The notes below the pieces were generated by a model, which saw only the letters and a list, made by a program, of their open reading frames with translations, searched no databases and was not told the DNA's origin. Made by a program: the position numbers and the translations under genes. Of a DNA stretch of 39,943 nucleotides, positions 10,292-38,853 are shown piece after piece. Every line of letters starts with the position of its first letter. Position 1 is the stretch's first letter. Source of the DNA: a virus; IMG/VR virus record IMGVR_UViG_3300048778_000078, positions 1 through 39,943 of that record, one strand, 5' to 3'.

Positions 10292-13200
10292 TTATCTATA
10301 AGATGAAGTCATTGCAGGACTAACTATTTTGCCAATATTATTAGATATATAATCTTTTGCGTCTCCATTTGTTGCATACTTAACATCTAATTGCAAGTTA
10401 ATCTGATTGACTCCGGGACGTTGATTGACATATATATCATAGTTATTATAACCTTGAGCGCCCATAATGTCATTCAATTCGCGTTTGATATCTCCTACAT
10501 TATTGGTGGTATCTAAAGGATCCACTAAAGGAACATAAGGTTTTCTCTGGAGTTGAGCGCCTTGACTTTGCCATAGGTTAAAATCATGAAGTTCAAGTCC
10601 CTCTTGTTGTACAGTTCGATACTTCACATCATCCAAAGCTACTCCGGGATTCCAGCCTACCCAATCTAAACCAGGTAATTGGTGTTGTTTGAAGTAATCA
10701 ACGATATCCGGATTCTTTTCTACATCTTCGCCCCATTTAGCTTCTAGGAATCTACGCATTCCTAAAGGAGTTATTTTTTTGATCTTTTCTCTATCTTCTT
10801 TGGGCGCTTGTACGAAGGCTTGAAAGAATTCTCTTTGTTTGGTCGGAATTGCTCGCATGATTGAAGCAAAATCACCATGTGGATCGGCGCCAAACATAGT
10901 GGACATAAAGTTTTTGCGATATTCTAATGCAGCACCAGTATAGCCTTGATTCATTGCTGTTAGAGTTTCATCTTCAGTCCACTTTTGAGCATGCAAGAAG
11001 GATGTATTCTTAGCAAGATTAGCAGCCTTTTCTCTATAATAAGTTTTATCTTCCGGAGTTTTTGCTTCTTTGGCTAATAAAGCAAGTTCTCCATGTTGAT
11101 GTTCGATAGCTTTCTGCAAAGCATGTCTGGCATCTTTAGAGGCATCTACAGAGTTAATTAATTTTTCAGGGTCAATTCCTTCATCTGCAATTGCTCTTTC
11201 TTTTGCCCATTCATATAATCTTTTATTTTTAACGAACTTTAGCATATCAAAATACTGATTAATGTCCCATTCTTTATTGCGATAATCTGGAATATAAGAC
11301 TTGCTATGAGTTAAGCTAAATGCTCCCCCAAGTGCGGCGCCTACTATAGAACCTAAAATATTAGAAGTGCGTCCTTTTGTAAACATGTAACCTGCAGCAC
11401 CACCCCCCACTATACCACTAAGAGGTCCTAATGACTTGACTCGTTCTATAACAGGCATAAAGAAGTCTCTGACTGGATGACCCCAATCCGCTGTTTCACG
11501 TCCATAGACTTGACTTCTTTCCCATTCTTCTAATGGAGTTCTTTTATGTAAGAACTTAGCAGAAACCCATCCGAGATTTGAGTGGGAAATGCTTTCCCAT
11601 GCCGTACCGACAGCTCTTTCCATACCGTTATACTGGACCATCTTATTAAGAGGATCAAATATATCGCCTGGTCCTGTTTTTTTATATTCTGCCATGTCTC
11701 CAGTTATAAGACGGCGATTCAAGTCACCCACTAAAATTGGAGTTGTTGGTAAAACAGTAGAAGTTTTTTCTTTATAACGATCATCATCTAAAACTTGGGC
11801 TGAAACATTAGCTCCTGGATGTAAATATTTAAGTATTTCTTTTTCACCTTCTGGAGTTATACCTTTGAGTCCAGCAAGTTTGTAGACGTGTTCTCCATGA
11901 CCTTCGGCTAAGAATGAACCTCTTCCCAAGTATTTATCTACAGTTAAGTTTTCAGTAGAGGTATCTCCTGAAGTAAACTTTCTAGGAGTAAACTCGAAAT
12001 GCTTTTTCTTTTTAGTAACCTCTTTACGAATCAACTTTCTTTCTTCTTCAGCTTCGGGTGTAAGCATCTCAACTTTAGACATAGCCATCATGTATTGCTG
12101 AGAATATTTATATTGAGTTGAATAAGGAGCTACGTCAGCTAAAATCCTATAAGCATCAAGCATAGAGTATTGTTTTTCTGAACCGGCATACGAACTATTA
12201 ATAGCTCCTAATTGTTGTGCTCCAGAAACAATACCTTTGCCGGGGGTGTAGAATTTTTCATAACCTGCACCTGGTAATCTAATTTCACCGAAATCACCCG
12301 CTTTATTGTATGGGTCACCTTGATGAAAATTCTGCATATATTCTGATCCAGGAATCCAACCGGGCATATTATTTTCAATAGGATTATAGAGATCTATATT
12401 CCGTTGACGGTGAGGTAAAAATCTTCTAAAGAGTTCGTTTGTCTGGAGCATTCCTCCCCAGCCTTGTTGATAGAAGGAACGTTCAGCAGAGTCTATTCTA
12501 TGAGCTGATTCTAGTTGTGGATCATCGAAAAGGCTTTGTCTTCCAGTAAGGTCAGTCATTCCTTGTTGACCTAACCAACCATATATACCTAAATATTCAT
12601 ATCCTCTATAAAAGGATTCTGTAGCTAATCCTTTGGGACTATTAGGATCAATAGCTTTACGTTTAGGCAAGCCCTTTAATAAGGGATCAACAGCTCTATC
12701 TCCCATTGGCTCTGGTGCACCTGCCATATAGCCAAATTGGGTAGGTTGCATAAATACGAAGTTTTCAGCACCCTCTCCGGTTCCTCCGCCAGTACCACCT
12801 GCCCCTAGACCTCCGCCAACACCTATATTATCTCCACCCCCAAATGCACCAGGTGTTTCGGGACTTGAATAAAGACCGCCGGGACCAGGTATTGCTGCTT
12901 CTGGACTTGCTCCTGAATATTTCCAAGGTTCTTTTTCATATCCTTGGTGCATTAAATAACCAGGTCCACCCAATGGCGCAATTGCGGGGCCAATAAAAGG
13001 AACTTCCTCTAGTCCATTACTAACATAAGGATAAGGTCTATCAGAATAATGTTTTTCAGCATAATGGTATGGATCTAAATAGTTTCCCCAATACTCTGCT
13101 TCCGATCCATATTGAACATCTGTAAATTGATATCTGGATTTAAATCTACGATAATAATTTGGTAGAAATTCTTTTATTTTTCCACCATGAAATTCTTGGG

Positions 13201-15226
13201 TACCCAATTCCCAATACGCGCCATTTCTAATGCCTACTCGTTTATCTCCGTAGTATTCTTCTTTATACTCTTCTGCAGTTTTTGTTACGTCTCCAAATCC
13301 TCCTAGTAATACGGAAGCTGCAGTTCCAGCCCAAAAAGCTTTAGGCCCAAACTTTAGACCTGCCAACATTGGTAGACCTAAGGCACGGCTGCCTACGGAG
13401 ATTCCTGAGGTCATAGAACCGGGCATTAGATCTTCTAGATATTGGGCACCTTTTGTTATACCAAGTCCTTGACGCATATACGAACTGCCTACAGTAATGG
13501 CAGCCAGCGCATCCATAGGTACATCAGAAGGACCATATCCAAAAAACTGGTGAGACATATCATCAGCAAATTGTAATGTTTTGTAACCAGCATATATAGG
13601 TAAGAAACGTTTAGTTAACATCTTCCATATAACATCAGGTGCGGAACGTGTTGTTCTTGGATCAAATCCTCCTATTCCAAGAGTTTCTAGTAAACGAACA
13701 GGTCTTTCAGTTAACCAGAACGCGCCTATTCCGGGAAGATCAGAATGAGGTACAAAGGCGTAATTAACATCCCCGAACTTATTACCTATTGTTTTAAATT
13801 CATTAGTGATGTTTTCTTCATGAAAGATATGAGCAGTTACATTCTTAAGGGAGCCGAAGAATCCTTTATCTTTAGCGGAACGTTTATTAACATCTTTCCA
13901 AAAAGATGTCCACTGCGATTCCATTTTGGCATGACCTGTTTTATAAAGACCAGGAACATCCATTTCAAGACTAGCCATCATGTTTTGGAAGAAGCCATTA
14001 CGAGGTGCATCTTTTATAGCCTCTGCACCATGACCATAACGTTGACGAATAACTGAACCGAAAACACTTTCAATCCATTCGCCAGTTTCTTTTTTACGAT
14101 ATCCAGTTTTAACTATAATACCAGTAGTAAGTTTCTTACCAGTCTCTTCATCATAAAGATGCCCGCCTATAAAAGCGGCACCTTTTGGCCCTGCTTTTAA
14201 TTGAGGCCCAAGAGGAGTTCCCGCTGGAAAATGTTGGAAAGAATGTGCTTGTTCAGCAGCACCAAAGACTTCACGAGGTCTTAATAATGTAATAGGATTA
14301 AAGTTAGCAAAAGGAATGCGGAAGTTTTTTTCGAAACCTAATACTGCATCCTTCACTATATTTTTTGCTGTATATCTTTGTAGATTAAGTATCTTATTGG
14401 CTTTAATATCAAATAAGACTCCAGAACCCAAAGCAATATTATTAAGAGGAATATTGCGAGTTTCAAACATTCTGAGAATATCTGGAGAAACCGCTTCTCG
14501 ATGAGCCTTCATTAAATCAGCTAGTGAGGCTGATCTTATTCCATGAACTGTATCCCTGTCATTTAAACCAAAACGAGTTTTCATGTCATGGAAAACATCA
14601 TTTAATCCATGAGCTTGTAGTTCAGTATTAAGTACTTCACTTTTAATATTAGAGATTAGACCTAAGTAATTCTGAATCGGAAAACGTCCATCGCCAGCCG
14701 AATAACTTGCTCTTTCTAATTCGAATTTGCGTGCAAATACTGAACCGAATTCACCGATATTCTTAAATTCAGAAGACTCTATAGCAGAACCTAATGCTCT
14801 AAGGCCGGGACGAATAACCGCATCTAGTCTACTAACTGTTCTTGCAGCATAAGGAGCAAGAGCTTTACCTGAATAATATAGTGTTCCTAAACTTAAAGCA
14901 CCCTCTAGTATGCGAGTACTACCAGATGCTTGGCCTTGTTCATAAATTTCTTTTTGTTTAATTGCTCCCAGTATATGTCCCGAAGCATAAGCTGTACCGG
15001 CAGTTATTGCCATGCCTAAGCCAGTTAACCAGGGGTTCTTATATCTGGCTTCTGCAAAGTGCATTCCACTTATTACTGCAGCGGTAGTAGCTACACCTAT
15101 GCCGACATTAAGGGTAGAAGGATCTTGTTTTTGCAGGTCTTCCTGACGTGAGTCTGCAAGCCGCTTACCTAGATAAGCAGAAGTACCAGCTACCGCTATG
15201 CCTAATCGAGTTGTATAACCCTTCAT
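10292..15226 (-). CDS. 1644-residue tape-measure or ejection protein candidate
   Basis: Starts with ATG in a TAATG overlap with the upstream chaperone-like gene. The position directly after tube and chaperone genes is that of the tape-measure protein, but the sequence is not a long coiled coil. The N-terminus has four Gly/Ala-rich hydrophobic stretches (about residues 6-20, 41-57, 66-88, 107-120). A Tyr-rich region near 660-720 contains IRNGAYWELGTQEFHGG and RPYPYVSNG. A Gly-rich linker runs near 790-822. A second conserved-looking block near 950-990 contains MPGWIPGSEY, QGDPY and IRLPGAGYE. A hydrophobic Gly-rich stretch (about 1265-1305, GIVGGGAAGYMF) precedes a charged helical C-terminus. 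Hydrophobic segments fit a protein stored in the tail lumen and inserted in the host envelope at ejection. It is the largest complete gene in the window. Function is inferred from position and composition only. Confidence 0.6.
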   Translation of the reverse strand: MKGYTTRLGIAVAGTSAYLGKRLADSRQEDLQKQDPSTLNVGIGVATTAAVISGMHFAEARYKNPWLTGLGMAITAGTAYASGHILGAIKQKEIYEQGQASGSTRILEGALSLGTLYYSGKALAPYAARTVSRLDAVIRPGLRALGSAIESSEFKNIGEFGSVFARKFELERASYSAGDGRFPIQNYLGLISNIKSEVLNTELQAHGLNDVFHDMKTRFGLNDRDTVHGIRSASLADLMKAHREAVSPDILRMFETRNIPLNNIALGSGVLFDIKANKILNLQRYTAKNIVKDAVLGFEKNFRIPFANFNPITLLRPREVFGAAEQAHSFQHFPAGTPLGPQLKAGPKGAAFIGGHLYDEETGKKLTTGIIVKTGYRKKETGEWIESVFGSVIRQRYGHGAEAIKDAPRNGFFQNMMASLEMDVPGLYKTGHAKMESQWTSFWKDVNKRSAKDKGFFGSLKNVTAHIFHEENITNEFKTIGNKFGDVNYAFVPHSDLPGIGAFWLTERPVRLLETLGIGGFDPRTTRSAPDVIWKMLTKRFLPIYAGYKTLQFADDMSHQFFGYGPSDVPMDALAAITVGSSYMRQGLGITKGAQYLEDLMPGSMTSGISVGSRALGLPMLAGLKFGPKAFWAGTAASVLLGGFGDVTKTAEEYKEEYYGDKRVGIRNGAYWELGTQEFHGGKIKEFLPNYYRRFKSRYQFTDVQYGSEAEYWGNYLDPYHYAEKHYSDRPYPYVSNGLEEVPFIGPAIAPLGGPGYLMHQGYEKEPWKYSGASPEAAIPGPGGLYSSPETPGAFGGGDNIGVGGGLGAGGTGGGTGEGAENFVFMQPTQFGYMAGAPEPMGDRAVDPLLKGLPKRKAIDPNSPKGLATESFYRGYEYLGIYGWLGQQGMTDLTGRQSLFDDPQLESAHRIDSAERSFYQQGWGGMLQTNELFRRFLPHRQRNIDLYNPIENNMPGWIPGSEYMQNFHQGDPYNKAGDFGEIRLPGAGYEKFYTPGKGIVSGAQQLGAINSSYAGSEKQYSMLDAYRILADVAPYSTQYKYSQQYMMAMSKVEMLTPEAEEERKLIRKEVTKKKKHFEFTPRKFTSGDTSTENLTVDKYLGRGSFLAEGHGEHVYKLAGLKGITPEGEKEILKYLHPGANVSAQVLDDDRYKEKTSTVLPTTPILVGDLNRRLITGDMAEYKKTGPGDIFDPLNKMVQYNGMERAVGTAWESISHSNLGWVSAKFLHKRTPLEEWERSQVYGRETADWGHPVRDFFMPVIERVKSLGPLSGIVGGGAAGYMFTKGRTSNILGSIVGAALGGAFSLTHSKSYIPDYRNKEWDINQYFDMLKFVKNKRLYEWAKERAIADEGIDPEKLINSVDASKDARHALQKAIEHQHGELALLAKEAKTPEDKTYYREKAANLAKNTSFLHAQKWTEDETLTAMNQGYTGAALEYRKNFMSTMFGADPHGDFASIMRAIPTKQREFFQAFVQAPKEDREKIKKITPLGMRRFLEAKWGEDVEKNPDIVDYFKQHQLPGLDWVGWNPGVALDDVKYRTVQQEGLELHDFNLWQSQGAQLQRKPYVPLVDPLDTTNNVGDIKRELNDIMGAQGYNNYDIYVNQRPGVNQINLQLDVKYATNGDAKDYISNNIGKIVSPAMTSSYR

Positions 15227-15840
15227 TAACCACGTTCCTTTAATTGCTTAAGTACTTCTTGAGACGATTCTACATTACGTTTTTGCATTATTCTTTGTTC
15301 ATCAGTTAAGGGACCTTGTTTAAGCATCTGACCAAGGCTTTGTCTTGCTGGCTCTTGTTCTTCAGGCATATCACCTGGTAGAGGAAAGGCCATACCTATC
15401 ATGTCCTCTGATAATGCTAACAATCTGGCAATCTGTTTACTGGACATGTCTTCAAGTTCTTCTATTTTATATATAGGAAAAGCCTTGGCTATAAAAACAA
15501 GTGCTTGTTCACTTAATATTTTATTGGTTTCTCTATATGTGCGAACTGCATCTATAAAATCTTCTATTTTGAAAAATCCACTGGTTTCAATGACTTGTTC
15601 TGCTAGAGTTCTGATATCAATATTAGTAAGATCTTCCAGATCTTTAATATCTGGAAATAATATTAAATGATTACATATGTATTCTTCGCCATCAAATGAT
15701 ACGTTTTCACCTGGACTTAATCTTACGATAGTATCGAATTCTGCTTTACTCATCTGCCTATAATAAACAATATGATTAGTTTCAGGAGTTTTAAACGCAA
15801 CTGCTTCTGGGTATTTTGCTAATACTTCTTCAAGTGTCAT
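15226..15840 (-). CDS. Tail assembly chaperone-like protein 2 (204 aa)
   Basis: Probably a cytoplasmic chaperone that holds the tape-measure protein during tail assembly; it is not expected in the virion. It sits between the tube genes and the giant tape-measure-like gene. Its core matches the upstream 128-residue protein: here HIVYYRQMSKAEFDTIVR, there VYYVRELSRIEYRQIRG, and in both this is followed about 25 residues later by a hydrophobic L-F/W-P segment and then LAEQVIETSGF versus LAKLVLLYSGF. It carries an extra C-terminal helical half (about residues 100-204) rich in Glu, Gln and Lys. The start codon at 15840 lies just after the U-tract of an intrinsic terminator and has no Shine-Dalgarno sequence, so translation may be weak or depend on read-through transcripts. 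The call rests on synteny and paralogy, not on a known family signature. Confidence 0.6.
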   Translation of the reverse strand: MTLEEVLAKYPEAVAFKTPETNHIVYYRQMSKAEFDTIVRLSPGENVSFDGEEYICNHLILFPDIKDLEDLTNIDIRTLAEQVIETSGFFKIEDFIDAVRTYRETNKILSEQALVFIAKAFPIYKIEELEDMSSKQIARLLALSEDMIGMAFPLPGDMPEEQEPARQSLGQMLKQGPLTDEQRIMQKRNVESSQEVLKQLKERG

Positions 15841-15876
15841 AAATAAAAAGGCTAGGCCGTTATTAGCAGCCTAGCC
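15841..15876 (-). terminator. Intrinsic terminator between the two chaperone-like genes
   Basis: On the minus strand a perfect 8-bp GC-rich stem (GGCTAGGC / GCCTAGCC) with an 11-base loop is followed at once by TTTTTATTT. This is the classic Rho-independent form. It lies 20 bases after the stop of the first chaperone-like gene. The T-run touches the ATG of the second one, so termination and initiation regions overlap. Confidence 0.85.
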
Positions 15877-15895
15877 CTTCTCCTTACTTGTTGAG

Positions 15896-16282
15896 TTAGA
15901 CTACACTGATTTCTACTGGATCGCGGAAACCAGAGTAAAGTAGTACCAACTTGGCTAGACTGGTAATGTAACCACAACCAGAAGTACTATAGTCTGTTGG
16001 AGAGATTGCGGGCCACAGAACTGCAGACTGAACAATCAGTTCATCACCACGTTGACCAGCTTCATCTTCAGGAAGCTTTTCAACTGCTCCACGAATTTGA
16101 CGATACTCAATACGACTCAATTCACGAACATAATATACTGTTTGAGGATCCCAAACAATACGATAGAGTTTCTTGCATCCCGCTTTCATTGTAGCCAATT
16201 CAGTTGCAGAAGGACCTGCAATTGTTGGTACAGCCGGTGTAGCAACCTGCGAAGCATCTGGTGTTACTGTATCATCTGCCAT
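15896..16282 (-). CDS. Tail assembly chaperone-like protein 1 (128 aa)
   Basis: ATG at 16282 with AAGGAG nine bases upstream. An Ala/Pro/Thr-rich N-terminus of about 35 residues leads into a compact domain (KKLYRIVWDPQTVYYVREL, then SRIEYRQIRGAVEKLP, then a hydrophobic helix SLAKLVLLYSGF). The second half matches the next gene, so the two are paralogs. Phages of many types encode two tail assembly chaperones between tube and tape measure, usually joined by a programmed frameshift; here they are separate genes. This gene appears to be its own transcription unit: a strong promoter lies just upstream and a terminator just downstream, which should give it much more product than its partner. Function is inferred from position, size and paralogy. 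Confidence 0.6.
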   Translation of the reverse strand: MADDTVTPDASQVATPAVPTIAGPSATELATMKAGCKKLYRIVWDPQTVYYVRELSRIEYRQIRGAVEKLPEDEAGQRGDELIVQSAVLWPAISPTDYSTSGCGYITSLAKLVLLYSGFRDPVEISVV

Positions 16283-16317
16283 TTCTATTTCTCCTTAGAA
16301 TTAAATCCGAATGCGCG

Positions 16318-16336
16318 TTAGGACTTATGATCCTAA
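16318..16336 (-). promoter_or_regulatory. Small inverted repeat at the presumed transcription start
   Basis: TTAGGA and TCCTAA flank a 7-base spacer (TCATAAG on the minus strand). The expected +1 of the promoter at 16341-16369 falls at about 16334, inside the first arm. It could be an operator or a 5'-end hairpin that stabilises the mRNA. The 6-bp arms are short, so it may be chance. Confidence 0.4.
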
Positions 16337-16340
16337 TACT

Positions 16341-16369
16341 ATGATATTACATAATCATTAGATTGTCAA
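16341..16369 (-). promoter_or_regulatory. Sigma70-type promoter for the chaperone-like gene
   Basis: The minus strand reads TTGACA (16369-16364), a spacer of exactly 17 bp, then TATCAT (16346-16341), five of six matches to the -10 consensus. The -35 box overlaps the TGA stop of the upstream tube-like gene. The leader to the ATG at 16282 would be about 52 bases and contains AAGGAG. It looks like a site for the host housekeeping sigma factor, which is unexpected within a late virion block. Confidence 0.75.
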
Positions 16370-17268
16370 GATACCTGATATCCATTAGTTGTTTTAACCA
16401 AACCTAAGGACTTACGAGTAAGGGGTGTTTCAATGGACCTTGCTATAAAGGAATAGACTTCTATTACTGGAGAATCGTCTGGCACTTGAATAGAATGTCC
16501 GGTAATTTCAACATTTTTAATTATCTTTAGAGTATGCGAAGAGGAAGCTTCATCGGGTATATTTTTAACTCTATCATCGGGATAACTGCCAAAATTCATA
16601 GTGATATTGAATGGAGGTAAGTTGTCCGGTTCAATAACTGTTGAATCAGGTTTGGCATTAGCATTATCAGAAGTACCCCAAAAGTATTCTGAAAGAAGAG
16701 CAGCTTTATTATCAAAGGATAAGTTAGATACTGAGGATGTGGCTGATTGAGCATTTAATTCTTCTATACTCGGAAGAACAAGTTTAGAAGGATCTGTAGA
16801 GTCTAACATATAGAGTACTGAAGTATCATTCTGTACTTGTTGGGCAAAATTTGCCATATCGTCAGTAGTAATTTGACTACTGCTGGTGTTGGAATTCTTT
16901 TTAAGATATTGTCCCATAGCGATATTTAAATAATTAGTATGAGTGTAGTACATGGCAAAAATACCTTCTACGATTTGAGTTCCCTTAGCTACTAGGTCGA
17001 ACTTTTGAGATTTATAACCGTAGAATGGACGTTTTGCTTGAGTAGCATTGTATAGAATGACATTTATATCATTCAACCATGTTTCTCCTAAGAAAACAGA
17101 TAATTGGCAACCACCATAATAATCTGTTTCATAACCATATTGAAAGTTTTGTAGGGTATCATTAGATCTATCTGATAAAGAACTACGACTAGAAGATTTC
17201 CAGGCATCATTGCCTTGAATCCCTATCGTAGAACCGAATATCGAATTAAGTAATGAACTTGTACTCAT
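16366..17268 (-). CDS. Tail-tube-like protein, divergent paralog 3 (300 aa)
   Basis: ATG in a TAATG overlap with the upstream paralog. Least conserved of three tandem relatives, but the same landmarks occur in order: YYGGCQLSVFLGE (about residues 50-62), KRPFYGYKSQKFDL (79-92), GTQIVEGIFAMYYTHTNYL (96-114), and near the C-terminus PPFNITMNFG, a strand ending in VEITG, then VIEVYSFIARSI. The other two have matching FSG, REK, RGxRxxAGxMVFxxFDRxAL, PFD, VEI and FxARxI elements. It is longer because of a Ser/Asn/Asp-rich insertion of about 100 residues. It may be a minor tube or tube-initiator protein near the baseplate, or a tube-tip adapter; this is inference from fold-like pattern and position. 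Confidence 0.6.
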   Translation of the reverse strand: MSTSSLLNSIFGSTIGIQGNDAWKSSSRSSLSDRSNDTLQNFQYGYETDYYGGCQLSVFLGETWLNDINVILYNATQAKRPFYGYKSQKFDLVAKGTQIVEGIFAMYYTHTNYLNIAMGQYLKKNSNTSSSQITTDDMANFAQQVQNDTSVLYMLDSTDPSKLVLPSIEELNAQSATSSVSNLSFDNKAALLSEYFWGTSDNANAKPDSTVIEPDNLPPFNITMNFGSYPDDRVKNIPDEASSSHTLKIIKNVEITGHSIQVPDDSPVIEVYSFIARSIETPLTRKSLGLVKTTNGYQVS

Positions 17269-17918
17269 TAGGTTACATTCATAGAGTTAGTTGAGTTATC
17301 AAAACTATAAGTCATTCCAGGTATCCAAGGCATATCTTCCATTAATGGATCGCCACCCGGCATGAGAATGTCTATATCTCGCGCACGATAAGTATGAGTT
17401 GATTCGGTATAGATATCATTAACGGACATTACCATACCTTCATCTACTAATTCTATACCATAGACATTAAGTTTAGATTGTCTTCCCTGCTCATTAATAA
17501 ACATGCAGACTATATCAAAAGGAATCATCTGGTCGCCTAAAAGAGAAAAGGCTCTTTCACCAGAACTTCTATCTAATTTGGCTTTTGCTTTAGCTATGTC
17601 CCATAAAGCATATCTATCGAATACACTAAATACCATAGTCCCAGCTAATGATCTACGTCCTCTTACGAATCCTTTAGGATAGGTATAGCCATGAGGTTGA
17701 ACGGCATATTTTTCTCTATGAATAGAATATGAGAAGGTATGGATATTCGCTATGATCTTGGGTTCGGCTCCTTTTACATTTACAATAGCACGAATATCAC
17801 AACCAGAATAAGATGTGTTTTGTCGTGCATATTGAGAAGAAATGGTAGGAGAGGAAGAACCAGGACCAAGAGAACCCAGATAGGCTTCATCTATAGCTTG
17901 CTGGATAATACTTGACAT
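17268..17918 (-). CDS. Tail-tube-like protein, paralog 2 (216 aa)
   Basis: ATG at 17918 follows a purine-rich AAGAAG. The core block RGRRSLAGTMVFSVFDRYAL (residues 86-105) is a close match to the same block of the gene before it. Both also share FSYSI/LSYSI followed by REK, a PFD-starting strand with NEQG/NEVG, and a C-terminal YRARDI/WVAREV strand. An N-terminal extension of about 20 residues is Ser/Pro-rich. Expected role: a ring-forming component of the inner tail tube or of its end cap. Which of the paralogs forms the main tube cannot be told from sequence; the first one directly after the sheath is the likeliest, making this one a candidate minor ring. Confidence 0.65.
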   Translation of the reverse strand: MSSIIQQAIDEAYLGSLGPGSSSPTISSQYARQNTSYSGCDIRAIVNVKGAEPKIIANIHTFSYSIHREKYAVQPHGYTYPKGFVRGRRSLAGTMVFSVFDRYALWDIAKAKAKLDRSSGERAFSLLGDQMIPFDIVCMFINEQGRQSKLNVYGIELVDEGMVMSVNDIYTESTHTYRARDIDILMPGGDPLMEDMPWIPGMTYSFDNSTNSMNVT

Positions 17919-17949
17919 TTTTCTTCTTTAAGGAGGGATTATGCCAGCC

Positions 17950-17984
17950 GGGAGGGGAAGCATCTAGCATATGCAACCCCTCCC
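17950..17984 (-). terminator. GC-rich hairpin between tube paralogs 1 and 2, without U-tract
   Basis: GGGAGGGG and CCCCTCCC form a perfect 8-bp stem, extended inside by a 4-bp GCAT/ATGC stem after a 2x2 mismatch, loop 7 bases. On the minus strand it is followed by GGCTGGCATAA, not by a T-run, so it is a poor intrinsic terminator. It may protect the 3' end of the tube mRNA or guide RNA processing. It sits in the 94-base gap, one of the longest intergenic gaps here. Confidence 0.55.
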
Positions 17985-18012
17985 TACTAGCCATCAAGAC
18001 AACTTATTGCGA

Positions 18013-18657
18013 TTAGGATGCCCCTGTTAATGCTGGGATATCGGCAAGATTGACAGAACCACCAAGTTCGATGATATCGATGCCAGTCCCACCCGAATCA
18101 TAAGGTCTCCAACCAGTGACTTCACGAGCAACCCAAGTAAAAGCTTGTTCGTTAACAATATCGTCAATGGAAATTCCGGAACCTTCGTTCAGAATCTCAA
18201 CACCAAGAACACTCATGGCCGCAATTTGTCCTACTTCGTTAGCAGCTGTTAAAGCTACGTCAAAAGGAGGAATCTGATCTGCATAAGTAGGTGTAGTCAA
18301 GAAAGCAGACACATTATCATCTACTTGATCAGCCGGACGAGGAGCAAGTCCAAATACTGTTCTTCGTACCTGATTTTCATCAGAGTGAGCAACATATAGG
18401 GACCGTTGTTTTAAGTTAAATAAAGCATCGCGATCAAACATGACGAATACCATGCTTCCAGCGATACCACGTTTGCCACGACTAAAAGACTGAGGGTTAG
18501 CAGATCCCATCACGTAGATAGGAGCTTTCTCTCTAGTGATAGAATAGGATAAACCCTGAATCTCAAAGATGCGTTCTCCATCAATAACAGCTGCAACGTC
18601 TACACCAGAAAAACTTGTATAAGTTCTTGTGTAGGCAGAGGTCGTAAGCGTACTCAT
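18013..18657 (-). CDS. Probable major tail tube protein, paralog 1 (214 aa)
   Basis: It directly follows the sheath gene, the standard place for the tube protein in contractile-tail phages. ATG at 18657 with AAGGAA upstream. Residues 16-60 read SFSGVDVAAVIDGE, LSYSITREKAPIYVMG and SANPQSF, followed by RGKRGIAGSMVFVMFDRDAL (60-79). The C-terminal half has PPFDVALTAANEVGQIAAMS, a VEILNEG turn and TWVAREV. This pattern is shared with two downstream paralogs. Subunits would stack as hexameric rings inside the sheath. Flanking hairpins on both sides suggest its mRNA is protected or separately adjusted, as expected for an abundant protein. I infer tube identity from position and repeated family pattern. 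Confidence 0.7.
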   Translation of the reverse strand: MSTLTTSAYTRTYTSFSGVDVAAVIDGERIFEIQGLSYSITREKAPIYVMGSANPQSFSRGKRGIAGSMVFVMFDRDALFNLKQRSLYVAHSDENQVRRTVFGLAPRPADQVDDNVSAFLTTPTYADQIPPFDVALTAANEVGQIAAMSVLGVEILNEGSGISIDDIVNEQAFTWVAREVTGWRPYDSGGTGIDIIELGGSVNLADIPALTGAS

Positions 18658-18686
18658 TTATGTGTTTTCCTTTCAAAAGACTAGGA

Positions 18687-18712
18687 CCAAGGGAGTTTTA
18701 AGGCTCCCTTGG
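18687..18712 (-). terminator. Hairpin after the sheath gene, weak terminator candidate
   Basis: CCAAGGGAG and CTCCCTTGG form a perfect 9-bp stem with an 8-base loop. On the minus strand it is followed by TCCTAGTCTTTTG, only a partial T-run. It lies 10 bases after the sheath stop and 30 bases before the next start. It may partly terminate or stabilise the sheath transcript. Confidence 0.6.
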
Positions 18713-18721
18713 CTCTGCCTA

Positions 18722-20167
18722 TTACAGGTTGGATTTCAAATTTACAATTACATTGATGGTACGAAGTTCGAATTCAGGAACTAGGGTCAAATAGATTGAC
18801 AACTTGCCTAGAACTCTTTCTGTATCTGAAGCAGAAATTGTGAAGTCGAACTTTTGAAGAGCACCCTTACTTACGAAACTCTGATATTGTGTTTGAAGAG
18901 CAGTCTTTAGTGCAGCTTGCATTTCCGCACTATTAGCCTGACCAATATAAGGATCGCAAATCTGACGAGTCAATTTCATGACTGCGTTTACGATTCTACG
19001 AACTTGCAAACGATTGTAGTCAGAACCCGGACGGCCTGCAGTAGGTGCATCCGTTACTACAATACCGCGATTTGTTTTGCGTGCAGTTACATAACGAGCG
19101 CCAGTTAATTTATCTAACTGAGCCAAAGAGTAACCATAACGCAAACCGACAATAGCGGGCATCGTTTTACCAGTAGGAGCATTCTGAGGATCTAGTACTG
19201 AAGTCAAACCTGCATAGATCGGAGCTCCATTAAGAGAGTAGTTACTATCATTGGAAGCATTGTTGTCAATGACTTCAAAAGCAGTAATACTAATGTAGGT
19301 TCCGATATCTACATAGTTTCCCATGCGATCTTTCAGAACTTCTGAATCATTCAATGGAGGATATCCATAGGCAATATCATCAGACGTGAAGTTGCTCATA
19401 TAGAAACCGGGAGAAATAGCAGCTCCTGGTGAACCAACTGCACCACTCATGAATTGTTGACCTAAGAGTCCAGTACCATTCACGAGTACTGCACCAGAGA
19501 TCAGATCATAAGTAGGTAAAGTGCCTACCCAAGACTGAATGCCTCTAAGACTTGCATCAGGATTTTCGCCTACACTTATTAATCCCGTACAATCGCTATT
19601 CTGTGAAGAAATATCGTAGCAAGCACGAGCTAACTGCCAAGCAAAGTTAGTTGGACGATTTGCTACAACAGTCACAGTGTCAAAAGCTTTAGCATCCACA
19701 GGATAAAGAATATCCGGAGGAGTAGGTGCCATTTTGACTAATTCATAAACGTTATCAAGGCATTTGTAGTAGTTTTCCTTGATGACATCATTGCCAGAGA
19801 AAAGAGGATAAACATTGCCATCACGATAATCCGTGAAAGTAGCAGAACCCCATTGGCCAAGAGAGAAGGCATAAACATTGTTGCCTCCACCATCAGCTAG
19901 TTCATATACGGCTTTGGTTACTGTTGACCCACTGGCTACAATACCGCTAGCAGGAATACTAGGATAAGAATGTCCATAAACATATGTGGCAAAATCTCCA
20001 CGTATCATGAGTATGGGCGTAAAAGCATATTGGTCAGCTGCTACATTGCCAGCTTCAGCAAAACCAATAGCATAGATTGCATCGCCTAGTATTTCAGTTG
20101 AGTTGACTTGAAGTCCGCCGTCTACAAGTTCTTCTTGCACAACGGGCAGATTTGTACTTTGAGCCAT
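18722..20167 (-). CDS. Contractile tail sheath protein (481 aa)
   Basis: Forms the outer contractile cylinder of the tail. The C-terminal domain is the recognisable part: an RYVTARKTNRGIVVTDAP strand-turn near residue 365, a helix RLQVRRIVNAVMKLTRQICD, then DPYIGQ, and the closing strands FDFTISASDTERVLGKLS, YLTLVPEFELRTINVIVNL. This matches the usual end of myophage sheaths (joint helix, short middle helix, then beta strands that interlock with neighbours). The middle section is a variable insertion rich in Gly, Ser and Asn. The start has a full AGGAGG overlapping the stop of the preceding gene (TAGGAGG). Length is typical for a sheath. Genes for the tube-like proteins follow at once. Confidence 0.88.
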   Translation of the reverse strand: MAQSTNLPVVQEELVDGGLQVNSTEILGDAIYAIGFAEAGNVAADQYAFTPILMIRGDFATYVYGHSYPSIPASGIVASGSTVTKAVYELADGGGNNVYAFSLGQWGSATFTDYRDGNVYPLFSGNDVIKENYYKCLDNVYELVKMAPTPPDILYPVDAKAFDTVTVVANRPTNFAWQLARACYDISSQNSDCTGLISVGENPDASLRGIQSWVGTLPTYDLISGAVLVNGTGLLGQQFMSGAVGSPGAAISPGFYMSNFTSDDIAYGYPPLNDSEVLKDRMGNYVDIGTYISITAFEVIDNNASNDSNYSLNGAPIYAGLTSVLDPQNAPTGKTMPAIVGLRYGYSLAQLDKLTGARYVTARKTNRGIVVTDAPTAGRPGSDYNRLQVRRIVNAVMKLTRQICDPYIGQANSAEMQAALKTALQTQYQSFVSKGALQKFDFTISASDTERVLGKLSIYLTLVPEFELRTINVIVNLKSNL

Positions 20168-23101: not shown

Positions 23102-23401
23102 TTAGTAGCGTTGTAAATAACCCTGCAAGTTTTCTTCTGGTATATGGAATACCACTTCTTGGCCATCTTCATCTATATCTGGCTCATCGGTTACTGTAAC
23201 TATCTGTCTAGAAGCTTCTATTTGAGCCTGTGGTTCTTCTATTTCACTCACATTAGGTAAGTGATCAGTATGAAGAACTTGTGGAGCGACTTGTTGAACA
23301 ATCTGCGGAAGTTGTTTGGTTCTTTCTACTTTTGGAGTAGAAACAGAACCGGCAGACGGGGTTCGCCCGCCTACCGGCCCTTGGTTTAGCTCTAGTACCA
23401 T
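23102..23401 (-). CDS. Small unknown protein after the capsid gene (99 aa)
   Basis: The start used is ATG at 23401 (MVLELNQGPVGG), preceded by GAGAGG and lying 19 bases after the capsid stop. A longer frame to 23500 would overlap the capsid gene by 80 bases and would begin with an atypical hydrophobic run. The protein is polar and low in complexity: a Gly/Pro/Ser N-terminus, a Gln/Val-rich middle (PQIVQQVAPQVLHTDHLPNV), and an acidic C-terminus (DEPDIDEDGQEVVFHIPEEN). It is probably largely disordered. It may be a short head accessory or connector-linked peptide. No family recognised. Confidence 0.6.
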   Translation of the reverse strand: MVLELNQGPVGGRTPSAGSVSTPKVERTKQLPQIVQQVAPQVLHTDHLPNVSEIEEPQAQIEASRQIVTVTDEPDIDEDGQEVVFHIPEENLQGYLQRY

Positions 23402-23420: not shown

Positions 23421-24668
23421 TTACGAGTTACGAACAGGAGTTGGCAAATTCTGAGCCATGTTGTTATTATGGAAGGCGAAGGTAAGAGCAACAGCCACAT
23501 TACGGGCAGCTACGATAGAACGGCCCTGTGACAATGTGCCCAAGCCATAACGTTCCCGAATCTTAAGGTTTTTGATATCCTTAAGAGGATCACGGAATTC
23601 TTCCGTTTCTACAGGATCCTTTTCTACGATTACACCCGTCTCACTGTCATCTAGTACATAGAAGTCAGTCAAGGGGAAAAGAGCCTTGCTGTCACTTCCA
23701 GTTACTAGAGTCTGGCCAGCGAGTGAGCCATCCTGTTTGTACACGAGTGCGCCCCGAGGAATAAAACGAACGAAGGGCGTAACCAATACCTTGAGAGGCA
23801 TCGGGAACGTGGATACAGGAACGGCAGTACGAGTATCAGAGTTGTTAGGAGCCGTGGTGTGCATACGGAGGTTAGTAGGATCGTCCCAATCGGTTTGACC
23901 CACTTTACCTTCAGTCTTACCACCCCACCACTGGTGCAAGCCCATCCAAGCGATCTCACGAAGATAGGGATCCTTAGCAAGCATTGTCCAGGCAAGTGGA
24001 TGCATGATTAGAGTATTGCCATTGTAACCGACATTCAATAGATAGGCGATCATATCGAATAGGTCGTCCAAGAAGAGACCACCATTGAACGTACCATCGA
24101 TTGCACGACCCGTAGTGGGGCCAATTACTGCAGTGGTAGGTTCAACGTTATCGAAGATTTTTTGGCCCATTTTATTGAAGAGGGTCAAGCATTTTAGTTC
24201 TTTCTTACGGGCAAGAGCCTTACCAGCTGCACGAAGATGAAGATTAATTACGTCCCATTGGGAATCTTCAATCATTTCCTCAGAGATACGGACCAATACG
24301 CCAACCTTTGAAATTGCAATGTTGACGATATTTCCTGAACCTACTGAGAGTTCGCGTTCTGGGTAAGAAGCAGTCTCACCAATTTCATCAGCCTCTAATG
24401 CGCCGATGGCAGGAAATTCAATTGAGCGACCTGAGTTAAGACGAATTGTTTGGAACAAATCCGTGATAACTAGATTTGGTTCAATTGCTTCCTTTACCAT
24501 AGTAGAGACTACTTTAGGCAAAAAGATGGTGGCGTCTGAGGAAGTAAGTACGTCCTTAACAGAAACCGAGTTCTTGGCATCTACAATGCCCATGCTACGG
24601 AATGCCCTGTGCATGTCTTTGAAGCGTTGCTTCAAGGCTGCATCAGTGATTTGTATGGATGAACTCAT
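23421..24668 (-). CDS. Major capsid protein, HK97 fold (415 aa)
   Basis: Builds the icosahedral head shell. It follows the prohead protease gene, with one gene between, and has one of the strongest ribosome sites in the window (AAGGAGGAG). Residues 50-130 contain typical HK97-type elements: FLPKVVSTMVKEAIEPNLVI, TIRLNSGRSIEFPAIGALEA (long hairpin region), then ISKVGVLVRISEEMIEDSQW and a spine-helix-like segment VINLHLRAAGKALARKKELK. The C-terminal part includes PLKVLVTPFVRFIP and IKNLKIRERYGLGTLSQGRS, which resembles the P-domain strand and end of many phage capsid proteins. GC content and codon choice look higher than in flanking tail genes, in keeping with strong expression. Length is usual for the family. 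Confidence 0.88.
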   Translation of the reverse strand: MSSSIQITDAALKQRFKDMHRAFRSMGIVDAKNSVSVKDVLTSSDATIFLPKVVSTMVKEAIEPNLVITDLFQTIRLNSGRSIEFPAIGALEADEIGETASYPERELSVGSGNIVNIAISKVGVLVRISEEMIEDSQWDVINLHLRAAGKALARKKELKCLTLFNKMGQKIFDNVEPTTAVIGPTTGRAIDGTFNGGLFLDDLFDMIAYLLNVGYNGNTLIMHPLAWTMLAKDPYLREIAWMGLHQWWGGKTEGKVGQTDWDDPTNLRMHTTAPNNSDTRTAVPVSTFPMPLKVLVTPFVRFIPRGALVYKQDGSLAGQTLVTGSDSKALFPLTDFYVLDDSETGVIVEKDPVETEEFRDPLKDIKNLKIRERYGLGTLSQGRSIVAARNVAVALTFAFHNNNMAQNLPTPVRNS

Positions 24669-35102: not shown

Positions 35103-35501
35103 TTATTTTTTCCCTCTGGCTTTTCTAATTCTACATTCCCAGTGAGGAATTTTATCTTTGTATTGTTTCTCTAAAACTAAGTATTCATCTTTTAAGAGAA
35201 CATGAAAAGTCTCTTTGGGTTCAAAGTGAGCAAATAAACGCAGACGCGTTTTATCACCCTTGTTCCATTTTCCCTTAACTTCTAACCATTTGACATTCCA
35301 AGGATTAGCAGAGTCTAATCTAAAGTCTGGCAAATAGGAATGCGTACCATCAAACCAGAATCTATGCACTTCATATCTATAAGAAATATTAAGAAAGTAT
35401 AATAGTCTTGCAATATTTCTTTCCCATGAACTCCTAAAGAAATCTTTATTTAAAGGTTCTGGGAGCTCTAATGCAGGCCCTTGTTTAAAGTTTGTTTTCA
35501 T
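35103..35501 (-). CDS. PD-(D/E)XK nuclease family protein (132 aa)
   Basis: Start taken as ATG at 35501 (MKTNFKQGPALEL), which overlaps the preceding gene by 17 bases; a TTG seven codons earlier is possible. The fold core is visible: SSWERNIARLLYFLN with Glu27, a strand YRYEVHRFWF, SYLPDFRL with Asp59, then KWLEVKGKW with Glu74 and Lys76 (E-x-K). The rest alternates strands and helices (FHVLLKDEYLVLEKQYKD). All catalytic residues are present, so activity is likely. Similar small enzymes act in phages as Holliday-junction or host-DNA nucleases or with the packaging machine. The adjacent gene is another nuclease. Basic C-terminus (RKARGKK) would aid DNA binding. Confidence 0.75.
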   Translation of the reverse strand: MKTNFKQGPALELPEPLNKDFFRSSWERNIARLLYFLNISYRYEVHRFWFDGTHSYLPDFRLDSANPWNVKWLEVKGKWNKGDKTRLRLFAHFEPKETFHVLLKDEYLVLEKQYKDKIPHWECRIRKARGKK

Positions 35502-36030
35502 GATAAAATTCCAAGTAAGCAATTAGGGATTTTAAAGTTGAAACACTATCTCTTAAATGATCCAGCGCTACGTTGCAATCATTACAAAGCAATCCACGAA
35601 TACATTTGCCGCAACTCTTTCTGGTTGTTGGGCAACAACTATGGTCATGATCTACTGCAAGTCGTCTTTTGAAGGAGGCAGCAAATCTTCCACAGCCAGC
35701 ACAGCGATTATTTTGTTTAGTTAAAAGTTCGTCATATTGTTCTGGCTTCAAGTTTTTCCTTTTAAGATCTATCTTAATTCTAAGTTTTCTTGCTTTATTA
35801 GACTTTGATCTAGAAGCTTGGTATATATTGTACTTGTCTTTATATTCTCTACTTCTGTCTTTATAAAGAATGTGAGAAGCAATTCTACATTTTTTACAAG
35901 TTAGGTCTAATGCAAACCCATTCTTTATGGGAGTAGTATAAAAGAATTCTTCAGTTCTTGGATAGACTTTTTTACAATCCATGCAAGGTGCCTCTTTAGC
36001 GCCATTATGATAATTTTGACGACGTTTCAT
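35485..36030 (-). CDS. Endonuclease VII-like HNH (zinc) nuclease (181 aa)
   Basis: Start taken as ATG at 36030 with AAGG six bases upstream; a TTG at 36069 would add 13 residues. The C-terminal part has the recombination endonuclease VII pattern: Cys110-x-x-Cys113, KRRLAVDHDHS (His128 and His130 region), then KCIRGLLCNDCNVALDHLRD with Cys149-x-x-Cys152. A second Cys pair set lies at the N-terminus (Cys16, Cys19, Cys45, Cys48), perhaps another zinc site. The middle is Lys/Arg-rich and helical. The family includes T4-type junction resolvases that trim branched DNA before packaging, and also free-standing homing endonucleases. Position next to the terminase region fits the first; insertion as a selfish gene is the alternative. 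Confidence 0.82.
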   Translation of the reverse strand: MKRRQNYHNGAKEAPCMDCKKVYPRTEEFFYTTPIKNGFALDLTCKKCRIASHILYKDRSREYKDKYNIYQASRSKSNKARKLRIKIDLKRKNLKPEQYDELLTKQNNRCAGCGRFAASFKRRLAVDHDHSCCPTTRKSCGKCIRGLLCNDCNVALDHLRDSVSTLKSLIAYLEFYHENKL

Positions 36031-36073
36031 CTGGGGCCTTGAATAAAGTGTTTTTGCATAACTTTTCAATGAA

Positions 36074-36093
36074 ATTCTAACAGTTTTTAGAAT
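36074..36093 (-). terminator. AT-rich hairpin at the end of the exonuclease gene
   Basis: ATTCTAA and TTAGAAT form a 7-bp perfect stem around a 6-base loop, and the exonuclease TAA is in the first arm. TTTCATTG follows on the minus strand. The stem is AT-rich and the T-run short, so it is a weak terminator or 3'-end hairpin at best. Confidence 0.35.
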
Positions 36094-38126
36094 GCTTTAT
36101 TCTGATGAATATGATGCCCTCTACCGTTCTGTTCTAATACAATGTTAACTAGACCGGCAGTTTGTTGTTCTCGTAAAGTCTGAGAAACAGACATTGGAGC
36201 TTGAGGAACACGGACTTGAGGCATTTTTATATGAAAAGTACCATGTTCAGTATTTGATGTAGCATTTAACTCATTTAATAAACGTTGAGTCTTGACGTAC
36301 TCGGTCTCACTATTTCTAAATGTAACACTTTCAGCATTTCGTAAGTCTTCTGCCCATGAAGGACTATCATCGAAACCAAAGAGATCTTTTGCTTTCTGTC
36401 CTTTAGGAATAAAGATATGGCCCCTTTGACCTCCTATATTGACTTTCTCTTTAGAGATGAATCCTGTCTTATCACTGAGAGTTCCGGGACTATCTCTTAA
36501 CAGTTGTTTGGAACCTTTTTTAATTGGTTCGGCGCCTAATTGATAGTCGCTCTTGATTGCATCATGTTCTAAACCTAACCAAGCATCACCTTCATGCACT
36601 CCTGCGGGAGACATTTTAATAGAAGCATGCCCCTTTGAGAAACCTTGAAGACGTAACTCATTTATTGTTTCTGGATTATCAAGATGTTTTTCTAACATGA
36701 TAATACCAGGATTGCTAACTTTGACTACTGATTTTTCGCCAGAAGATACTAGGTCAAACGCCGTTTTAATAGTATTTTTTAGACCTTTATAACCAGAACC
36801 AAAGTCTGTATTGTTCCTTATGATTCCGGTTGCATAACCACCATTTCCAGGATGAAGACCTTCTTGTTTTTGAGGTTCATCAAATCCGGAAGTTAATAAC
36901 CTAAATCCGGCATAGGCTAATAATGCTCCTGCCCCACCTATCATAATTTTAGTATGAAGAGGAGCTTTTGTAATACCTTTCCACCACTCAGCGACTGGTT
37001 CAATAGGAACCTTTGGAGAAGTACTAAGAATTTCTTTCATTTCTAAACCTAGTTTTACCGAACCTGCACTTTTACCCTCGTTAATAGTCCGTCCGGCAAT
37101 ACTAGATTGATGAGAAAGAAATCTTTGAGAAGCTTCTTTTTGTGTTAAATCCTCTAAGCCTCTAATTTCTTGACTTTTAAGATATGCAAGATGGTTTCTT
37201 ACATCATATGTAGGATCATGAGCTTTACCTTTGAATTCCATTCCGGCAAACTTCATCCAGTCTTCTACAGTAGTACCTTTACGAGCCGCATAAAAAGCTT
37301 CTTCATTGGCTGGTTTTTCTTTAAGTCCTCCGGCCATGAAATGTTCTTTATAAAAAGAGTGTAAACCAGGAAACTTCTCTTGTAAATAAGTCCCCACCAT
37401 GCCTCTAGGACCTGCTAAGTTATTAGGTCTTGGGAATTTGCTGGACTTAAACTTGCCCGTAGGATCAAGTTCTCCTAATGTCTCTAAAAATTGAACATTC
37501 GGGTCATATTGTTTTAAAATACCTAAGGCGCTCGACTGAGCTTTTTCCCAACCTGGCTTGATATTATTGGAAAAATAAGAAGACAATGCATGAGAATCCG
37601 GATTAGTGGCTGCGTATTTCTTAAATCTATCTAGAGTAGTTTCTGTTATTAAACCACTTTCTAAAGCATGATGAGTAGTTAAGAATTTCCAGTCAAATGC
37701 TGTTAGATTGTGACCAGTAACCACGTTGACTTTATCTTTAGCAAATGTCGAACCAATAGTATGAAGTATATCTGTCGCTGAATAAGACTTGCCTTCATAA
37801 CCTATATATCTTTGAAGGGCCGATTTAAATTGTACTCCTACATTTCTATCTGCACCTTCCCAAGCTTTTGTATAGTCTGGTATATTCGCATATTTAGTAA
37901 ATCCATGAACTTCTTGAGTGCCACTTTGAATAGCGAACTCGGTCATAGATCCACTAGTACGAGAAGGTGCCTCTAAAGGAGATTGCAATCCAGTAGTTTC
38001 AATATCGAAACCGACAAGATTTACATCTTTATGTTGGGCAATATCTATTAACTGTTTATGAGATAGGTTTTGGCCTACATTAGCCCTATGCAATAAATCT
38101 AAAAGATAAGGATCAAGTTGGGACAT
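36087..38126 (-). CDS. DnaQ-like DEDDh exonuclease with membrane segment and long C-terminal domain (679 aa)
   Basis: Start taken as ATG at 38126 with CCGGAG upstream and a 14-base overlap with the previous gene; a TTG eight codons earlier is less likely. Residues 35-320 are a 3'-5' exonuclease of the DEDDh class: LVGFDIETTGL (Asp41, Glu43), VVTGHNLTAFDWKFL (Asp145), HDPTYDV (His303, Asp308). An insertion of about 140 residues lies between the second and third motifs. Residues 391-411 form a hydrophobic helix (TKIMIGGAGALLAYAGFRLL). The C-terminal 265 residues start with NNTDFGSGYKGLKNTI and have a mixed alpha/beta look; I do not recognise this domain. A phage proofreading domain would not need a membrane helix, so it may be a virion protein delivered with the DNA. 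Enzyme class is confident; role is inference. Confidence 0.8.
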   Translation of the reverse strand: MSQLDPYLLDLLHRANVGQNLSHKQLIDIAQHKDVNLVGFDIETTGLQSPLEAPSRTSGSMTEFAIQSGTQEVHGFTKYANIPDYTKAWEGADRNVGVQFKSALQRYIGYEGKSYSATDILHTIGSTFAKDKVNVVTGHNLTAFDWKFLTTHHALESGLITETTLDRFKKYAATNPDSHALSSYFSNNIKPGWEKAQSSALGILKQYDPNVQFLETLGELDPTGKFKSSKFPRPNNLAGPRGMVGTYLQEKFPGLHSFYKEHFMAGGLKEKPANEEAFYAARKGTTVEDWMKFAGMEFKGKAHDPTYDVRNHLAYLKSQEIRGLEDLTQKEASQRFLSHQSSIAGRTINEGKSAGSVKLGLEMKEILSTSPKVPIEPVAEWWKGITKAPLHTKIMIGGAGALLAYAGFRLLTSGFDEPQKQEGLHPGNGGYATGIIRNNTDFGSGYKGLKNTIKTAFDLVSSGEKSVVKVSNPGIIMLEKHLDNPETINELRLQGFSKGHASIKMSPAGVHEGDAWLGLEHDAIKSDYQLGAEPIKKGSKQLLRDSPGTLSDKTGFISKEKVNIGGQRGHIFIPKGQKAKDLFGFDDSPSWAEDLRNAESVTFRNSETEYVKTQRLLNELNATSNTEHGTFHIKMPQVRVPQAPMSVSQTLREQQTAGLVNIVLEQNGRGHHIHQNKAF

Positions 38127-38853
38127 TTGGAGACTCCGGTATAGGTTCAATTACTTGAACATTATCAATCGGAGTTGCTAGTTCGGCTCTTACTGCTTCA
38201 GCTTTAGCAGAAGATTCTTTGCGTAATTTTTCTACTAATTTTGTAGCATTAGAATAATTGAGTGCTGGATTATTGGAATTGCCAGCACCAGCATCTGCAA
38301 TAGATTTACGAGTAGCTAATAAAGCTTCACGCATTTTAAGGGTACGACGAATAATCATATCTTCCCACTGAGCTGCTATATGTAATTCTTTTCGATAAAC
38401 AGGAGCGCCTTTTTCGTCCACTCCTACACATTGATCTGCTACAAAGTCTTCCATAGCTAAACGATTAGATACTCTTAATTGGTAAATCTCTGCTTTAGCT
38501 AATTCACGAGCCATAGACGATTCAATTAAATTATTGGGATCAATCTTCAATTCATTCATTATCTTATTAGACCAAACTTCCATCAAATGCATCTCTACAG
38601 GACATGGTTGACCAACTATATCCTCTACCAAAACACCCATGGTAATAAGTGGGCAATGGACAGCCATATAGCAGACTTTTCCCTTGCAATGCAAAGGTAT
38701 ACCTGCATGACTACCTGATTCTAATGATCTTAATTGAAAGGAAGCTTTACGAAGGTTATCAATTTCTTTATTAGAGTGTTCGACATATTTCTTTAATAAA
38801 CTAGGAACTTCTTCAGTTATAATAATATCATTTTCAGACTGGGGGGTGGTCAT
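38113..38853 (-). CDS. Cys-rich protein, possible terminase small subunit (246 aa)
   Basis: Start taken as ATG at 38853 (MTTPQSEND) with GAGG upstream; an ATG five codons earlier is possible. Residues 54-87 carry a four-Cys pattern: LHCKGKVCYMAVHCPL (Cys56, Cys61, Cys67) and GQPCPVEM (Cys84), probably a zinc or Fe-S site. The rest is almost all helix, with LAKAEIYQLRVSNRLAME and a long Arg/Lys/Glu-rich helix EDMIIRRTLKMREALLATRK, ending in a Pro-rich tail. I recall similar C-x4-C...C-P-x-E phage proteins near packaging genes, so a small terminase role is possible, but the large subunit is 5 kb away and no helix-turn-helix is seen. Confidence 0.55.
   Translation of the reverse strand: MTTPQSENDIIITEEVPSLLKKYVEHSNKEIDNLRKASFQLRSLESGSHAGIPLHCKGKVCYMAVHCPLITMGVLVEDIVGQPCPVEMHLMEVWSNKIMNELKIDPNNLIESSMARELAKAEIYQLRVSNRLAMEDFVADQCVGVDEKGAPVYRKELHIAAQWEDMIIRRTLKMREALLATRKSIADAGAGNSNNPALNYSNATKLVEKLRKESSAKAEAVRAELATPIDNVQVIEPIPESPNVPT

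Follow-up and report, generated by a model that had tools for sequence, protein, structure and literature searches.

The window analyzed here (a 39,943-base virus fragment, with its late genes on the minus strand) encodes two paralogous genes with a tail-chaperone-like fold, A (128 aa) and B (204 aa), which are separated by a GC-rich hairpin followed by a U-tract. We propose, with a probability of roughly 0.66, that a leaky terminator at this junction sets the amounts of A versus B and replaces the frameshift. Most long-tailed phages set the ratio of their tail chaperones by ribosomal frameshift, and as a recoding event in these phages the G/GT frameshift is among the most broadly conserved. 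In the proposed mechanism, RNA polymerase coming from upstream (and here probably also from a promoter in front of A) would transcribe A, the hairpin and U-tract would end most transcripts, and the read-through RNA alone would carry B, the tape measure gene and the distal tail genes. A would then be much more abundant than B, giving a ratio of the gpG:gpGT type without a programmed frameshift. The A-B terminator would be one of several step-down terminators that follow the genes of proteins required in excess (capsid, tube and chaperone A). In the window only, a poor ribosome site may lower B further, the sole Shine-Dalgarno being 5' of the hairpin and, by prediction, partly folded into it. 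We favor the leaky terminator because it accounts for where the hairpin lies, for its recurrence in relatives under different sequences and for the missing route to a fused product; it is also favored by a precedent for each of its halves (the T7 terminator Tphi, and the ~30:1 ratio in lambda).

The window virus is a large contractile-tailed phage. Its late genes come in the order major capsid, sheath, tube1, tube2, tube3, A, B, a 1644-aa gene in the tape-measure position and more long tail genes (Table 1), and the stop codon of B overlaps the start of the 1644-aa gene at 15226. No DNA-level neighbors of the window were found in the phage collection, and a search of viral contigs with the proteins P0001 and P0007 (sheath) confirmed no close relatives. 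At the protein level, relatives include Moorella phage MTATph1 (L002), Acinetobacter phage ME3, Bacillus phage KLEB27-3 (L060), Bacillus and Paenibacillus phage-plasmids and many IMG/VR contigs; the order sheath-tube-tube2-tube3-A-B-long gene is common to the window, MTATph1, ME3, KLEB27-3 and the phage-plasmids. In MTATph1, a gene annotated as S-adenosylmethionine decarboxylase (12049-12405) lies between the two tube genes, and the MTATph1 tube proteins and phrog_9206 carry the label 'major head protein', which seems to be a misnaming of tail tube proteins. Elsewhere in the window, a 687-aa protein (36087-38150, minus strand) is encoded amid structural genes; its DEDD exonuclease-like N-terminus (VGFDIETTGL) is followed by a hydrophobic segment and then by a long uncharacterized C-terminus. 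A 194-aa cysteine-rich protein (35485-36069, minus strand), encoded near the terminase gene, resembles recombination endonuclease VII/HNH.

Table 1. Positions of late genes and of putative regulatory features in the window, in the order of transcription
Feature	Positions	Strand	Remark
Major capsid gene	23421-24668	-	
Strong hairpin after the major capsid gene, imperfect U-tract	23345-23381	-	Step-down candidate
Sheath gene	18722-20167	-	
Strong hairpin at the sheath-tube1 junction, imperfect U-tract	18686-18713	-	Step-down candidate
tube1 gene	18013-18657	-	
tube2, tube-like gene	17268-17918	-	
tube3, 300-aa tube-like gene directly upstream of A	16366-17268	-	
Sigma70-type promoter-like site, TTGACA-17-TATCAT	16341-16369	-	11/12 consensus positions
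Small inverted repeat, TTAGGA...TCCTAA	16318-16336	-	Sequence, fold
Shine-Dalgarno AAGGAG of gene A, 8 nt before ATG	16291-16296	-	
Gene A, 128 aa, short tail-assembly chaperone (putative)	15896-16282	-	gpG-like position and fold
AAGGAG, Shine-Dalgarno-like, just 5' of the hairpin	15880-15885	-	39 nt before the B ATG
Intrinsic-terminator-like hairpin and U-tract	15841-15876	-	10-bp GC-rich stem, 7-nt loop
TAG stop in the B frame, inside the hairpin	15871-15873	-	Between A stop and B ATG
Gene B, 204 aa, long chaperone (putative)	15226-15840	-	A-like N-terminal domain and helical extension, gpGT-like
1644-aa protein in the tape-measure position	10292-15226	-	Matches long genes of relatives

A and B are duplicated genes, as judged from their sequences. 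Family profiles of the two (60 A sequences and 61 B sequences) align with a probability of 99.6 and an E-value of 1.8e-23 according to hhalign, the alignment spanning the core of A and the first 99 residues of B. A direct BLAST comparison of A with B within the window gave no hit below E 0.01; both proteins match B of MTATph1 (E 6e-6 for A and 1.5e-9 for B), and BLAST hits between A and B are found inside single phages, namely MTATph1 (E 1e-26) and the phage of L005. Using an HMM built from the A and B proteins of relatives, two adjacent copies of one domain were identified in 121 of 150 loci.

AlphaFold2 models of the window proteins (mean pLDDT 84.7 for A and 87.8 for B) have their four best PDB matches in common, namely 3fgx (Z 10), YqbN (3klu), the HK97 tail-assembly chaperone (2ob9) and 5ir0. 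The 2ob9 and 3klu matches have Z scores of 7.2 and 7.6 for A, and 5.0 and 6.0 for B; Z scores of 5-8 are modest alone, but the agreement of the two models supports a chaperone fold. The match to 2ob9 and 3klu is one of fold without detectable sequence similarity (a profile search of PDB sequences with A and B gave no chaperone match). By both the models and hhalign, B looks like an A-like domain followed by further helices, i.e. the relation of gpGT to gpG. The best viral-model matches of B include A7KUR8 (E 4.9e-7) and A7KUR7, which are probably 0305phi8-36 proteins. PGAP labels both genes 'tail chaperonin' in two phage-plasmids (L151, which is pAD3 of Bacillus velezensis, and L152), and PHROGs 29362 and 29368 cover A and B with no function assigned. 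No curated chaperone family in Pfam or NCBIfam matches A or B of the window, which says little since the published two-gene form of the chaperone seems to have no model either; such a match is a matter of labelling in a library, not of biology. Fold, gene position and paralogy thus support A and B as tail-assembly-chaperone-like proteins. The initial annotation had read the two proteins as duplicated tail chaperones and had named structure prediction as a check; the profiles, the gene positions and the shared PDB entries all agree with it.

Between the two genes, the hairpin GGCTAGGCTG-CTAATAA-CGGCCTAGCC (15876-15850) is followed by the U-tract TTTTTATTT (15849-15841; both on the minus strand), whose last base abuts the ATG of B (15840-15838) with 0 nt between. 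The hairpin with its flanks folds at -26.4 kcal/mol (z -5.5), and none of 200 shuffles was as stable. An intrinsic terminator is marked in sequence by a GC-rich stem of at least 5 pairs followed by a U-tract, and in RNA by 3' ends within that tract; by sequence this is a putative strong one, as had been annotated from the start; it would have to be leaky to serve in the proposed mechanism. An automated promoter/terminator scan overlooked this textbook terminator, probably because the U-tract, which is able to pair with the upstream AAGGAGAAG, was taken into the stem.

No usable frameshift connects A with B. Overlapping frames with a slippery site, the arrangement of a programmed frameshift, are not found in the window, and the TAG at 15873-15871 closes the B frame, so a frameshift from A into B is impossible there, confirming the early view that this phage does without one. 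Where the terminator is absent (59 loci), B occurs in each of the three possible frames with respect to A, at 23/19/17 loci, and therefore a fused A-B product is not conserved. On these two grounds, fusion of A and B by frameshift or by stop read-through was rejected.

Among the loci first examined, 19 carry a hairpin and U-tract just past the A stop (dG -11.7 to -23.5): the window, L005 and its duplicates, L065, L066, L068, L069, L073, L070, KLEB27-3, L023, L026, L057, L048 and the phage-plasmids L151-L156. These loci comprise Bacillus/Paenibacillus phage-plasmids, KLEB27-3 and metagenomic phages, and their hairpin sequences are alike within subclades and unrelated between subclades. A strict terminator definition was passed by 16 of 18 non-redundant loci, which is descriptive rather than an unbiased rate because these 18 were picked for having the terminator; the corresponding figures are 2.4% for random positions in the same loci and 0-5% for shuffled versions of the stretch. 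A fairer test is given by the later-fetched non-duplicate loci with A and B, of which 6 of 9 have the hairpin (L161, L225, L227, L228, L231 and L233, but not L223, L232 or L234). L227 was counted by eye (hairpin and T-run), being below the rule of the automated caller, and L226, L230 and L224 were left out as near-duplicates of loci fetched before. In L041, L079, L080 and L123 the hits after A lie mostly inside the next coding region, as do those after B in several loci, and neither were counted as support. Very stable hairpins lie within the first codons of B in L079 (13092-13126), L080 and L041, where there is no intergenic terminator.

The A-B terminator is missing in the near relatives L071, L002, L232 and L234 and in two big sister clades in which A and B adjoin, which means that the chaperone pair can do without it. 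The median gap between A and B is 6 nt without the terminator versus 57.5 nt with it. Mapped on the tube-protein tree, the trait requires five changes, of which no fewer than three are forced by well supported branches, which indicates that the terminator was gained or lost repeatedly. At the level of sequence, the terminator is evolutionarily recurrent at the same junction, and this recurrence makes the setting of the ratio by termination credible. An efficient terminator that is suppressed late by an antiterminator would look no different at the sequence level.

Other junctions of the late operon carry terminators as well. Among 77 non-redundant loci, a strict terminator follows tube1 in 53/77 and the major capsid gene in 33/50, as compared to 2/76 after tube2, 0/76 after tube3 and 4/77 after the sheath gene. 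Terminators after the capsid and tube1 genes suggest that the late operon of this family is stepped down after genes with abundant products, and the A-B terminator is an extra step in some lineages. In the window, the hairpins after the capsid and sheath genes have poor U-tracts, which leaves the A-B terminator as the best canonical one of the module. Between tube1 and tube2 (17945-17985 region), the inverted repeat GGGAGGGG...CCCCTCCC, with a long loop and no U-tract, occupies the place after tube1 where relatives have a terminator. The broader statement, that this lineage sets its chaperone ratio by leaky termination between duplicates, that the device was gained or lost several times, and that it belongs to a general step-down scheme, stands at about even odds.

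Since the terminator precedes B, the tape measure gene and everything downstream, it may lower all of them and not the A:B ratio alone. It is a serious though tentative possibility, somewhat below even odds, that the terminator works as a general step-down, keeping the tape measure and every distal tail gene below the level of capsid and tube, with the A:B ratio as a by-product. The overlap of the B stop with the tape-measure start, by which both genes would share the same read-through RNA, and the terminators found after major capsid and tube1 throughout the family speak for it, and T7 Tphi after gene 10 acts likewise (PMC5592923). However, the extra step falls exactly between the paralogues, not before A or after B, and no real intergenic terminators were found after B (the matches there lie in the next reading frame). 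This alternative overlaps with the setting of the A:B ratio rather than excluding it, and selection may act on the A:B ratio or on the level of A relative to all later genes.

A scan for sigma70-type promoters before B gave no signal in 17 loci (median p 0.59, none below 0.05), which leaves read-through as the apparent source of RNA for B and the tape measure. The promoter-like site before A has its TTGACA at 16369-16364 and, after a 17-nt spacer, its TATCAT at 16346-16341 (minus strand), with an expected start near 16334; the -35 box shares bases with the stop codon of tube3, the 300-aa gene in front of it. Sites with 11/12 matches occur three times on the 40-kb minus strand of the window and not on the plus strand, with 0.6 per 40 kb on average in whole-strand shuffles. 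Shuffling the 118-nt region before A reached 11/12 in 16 of 2000 cases (0.8%), and in a weight-matrix scan the site has a p of 0.005 versus equal-length stretches of the same strand. A transcript from this putative promoter would have the small inverted repeat (16318-16336) at its 5' end. Across the family, good sigma70-type promoter scores before A are confined to the window and L153-L156 (p 0.005 to 0.023), with no signal in the other loci scanned; recurring only in this Paenibacillus/Bacillus phage-plasmid clade, a promoter-A-terminator arrangement is not a family-wide unit. The near-consensus site that the initial annotation read as a promoter is thus borne out in the window, whereas its picture of a pair set apart by its own promoter and terminator carries over to relatives for the terminator, and for the promoter in one other clade only.

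A moron-like insertion (promoter-gene-terminator) was rejected, because A is syntenic and homologous in all relatives and is a paralogue of B. The palindrome TGTAATGCATTACA is found with 0-3 mismatches tens of bases before A in L153-L156, L225-L228, L230-L232 and L234. It recurs in most relatives fetched later, and in the L153-L156 clade it is the only near-perfect copy in 22 kb. It overlaps or follows the -10 box and looks like an operator or a phage-specific promoter element.

Unlikely, in our view, is a hairpin that acts mainly on translation, its stem bringing or hiding a Shine-Dalgarno and fixing a low synthesis of B. In the window the hairpin is flanked by an AAGGAG at its 5' foot and by the B ATG at its 3' foot (15885-15838), the AAGGAG (15885-15880) is largely paired in the predicted fold, and there is no Shine-Dalgarno at normal distance before B; in T4 gene 25, a stem reportedly brings the Shine-Dalgarno to the start. 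Against this, the U-tract is typical of terminators and recurrent, and most relatives carrying the terminator have a fair Shine-Dalgarno of B 3' of the hairpin, so an effect on translation cannot be its conserved role. B had initially been described as lacking a Shine-Dalgarno, which is accurate for the normal distance but passes over the AAGGAG 5' of the hairpin. Its weak start is a trait of the window itself; of the earlier suggestion that termination and a weak start together set the ratio, termination gains credibility from its recurrence, and the weak start is not shared by most relatives with the terminator.

Similarly improbable is that the hairpin ends or protects an abundant A mRNA as a 3' stabilizer, with B and the tape measure transcribed from a separate phage promoter that is not visible as sigma70. 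A has its own promoter-like site in the window and L153-L156, and phage promoters of an unusual kind have been suggested for 0305phi8-36 (PMC2147016). However, the U-tract is 0 nt from the B ATG in the window and about 10-30 nt in relatives; with so little sequence before B, a separate promoter would have to lie inside A or the hairpin, where no promoter signal was found. That hairpin and promoter both arose by chance is very improbable: consensus matches across the region are no more numerous than in shuffles, but the hairpin is far more stable than its own shuffles and the same junction in relatives has hairpins of unrelated sequence, a recurrence that rules out chance for the terminator (though for the terminator only).

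If the leaky terminator does set the ratio, a lineage with terminator-fixed stoichiometry would show that it is the ratio, not the frameshift, that is selected, and it would offer a clean test system in which hairpin strength is compared with the A:B ratio and tail assembly. It would also provide a simple sequence signature to find the chaperone pair in large phages that are too divergent for curated families.

The closest known system is the paralogous two-gene tail chaperonin gp143/gp144 of 0305phi8-36, which has no frameshift and whose long form, gp144, has no recognizable ribosome site (Hardies et al. 2007, PMC2147016). That phage is of the same family of long-tailed myophages as the window phage, and in both a short and a long paralogous chaperone gene are adjacent before the tape measure. 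Two paralogues without a frameshift, which define the two-gene chaperonin of the 0305phi8-36 lineage, are found in the window, so the duplication, the lack of a frameshift and the weak start of the long form are not new. The two-gene form has been known since 2007, and the new part is the terminator between A and B: we found no description of a terminator or promoter between gp143 and gp144 in that paper, and no report of a tail-assembly chaperone with a terminator in the open-licence literature, the restriction to open-licence papers making this a weak absence. In lambda G/GT, the long form is made by a -1 frameshift in one message, with a gpG:gpGT ratio of about 30:1 (PMC5009743), i.e. the short protein is in large excess. 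Chaperones of the G/GT type are further expected to bind the tape measure and tube protein and to be absent from the virion. As in lambda, the long form in the window is the short-form domain with an extension and the pair stands before the tape measure; unlike lambda, the window has separate genes and a putative terminator. In T7, the leaky terminator Tphi behind an abundant structural gene (gene 10) lowers the later genes (PMC5592923); Tphi sits behind the capsid gene and its target is T7 RNA polymerase, whereas the device in the window lies between two paralogous chaperones.
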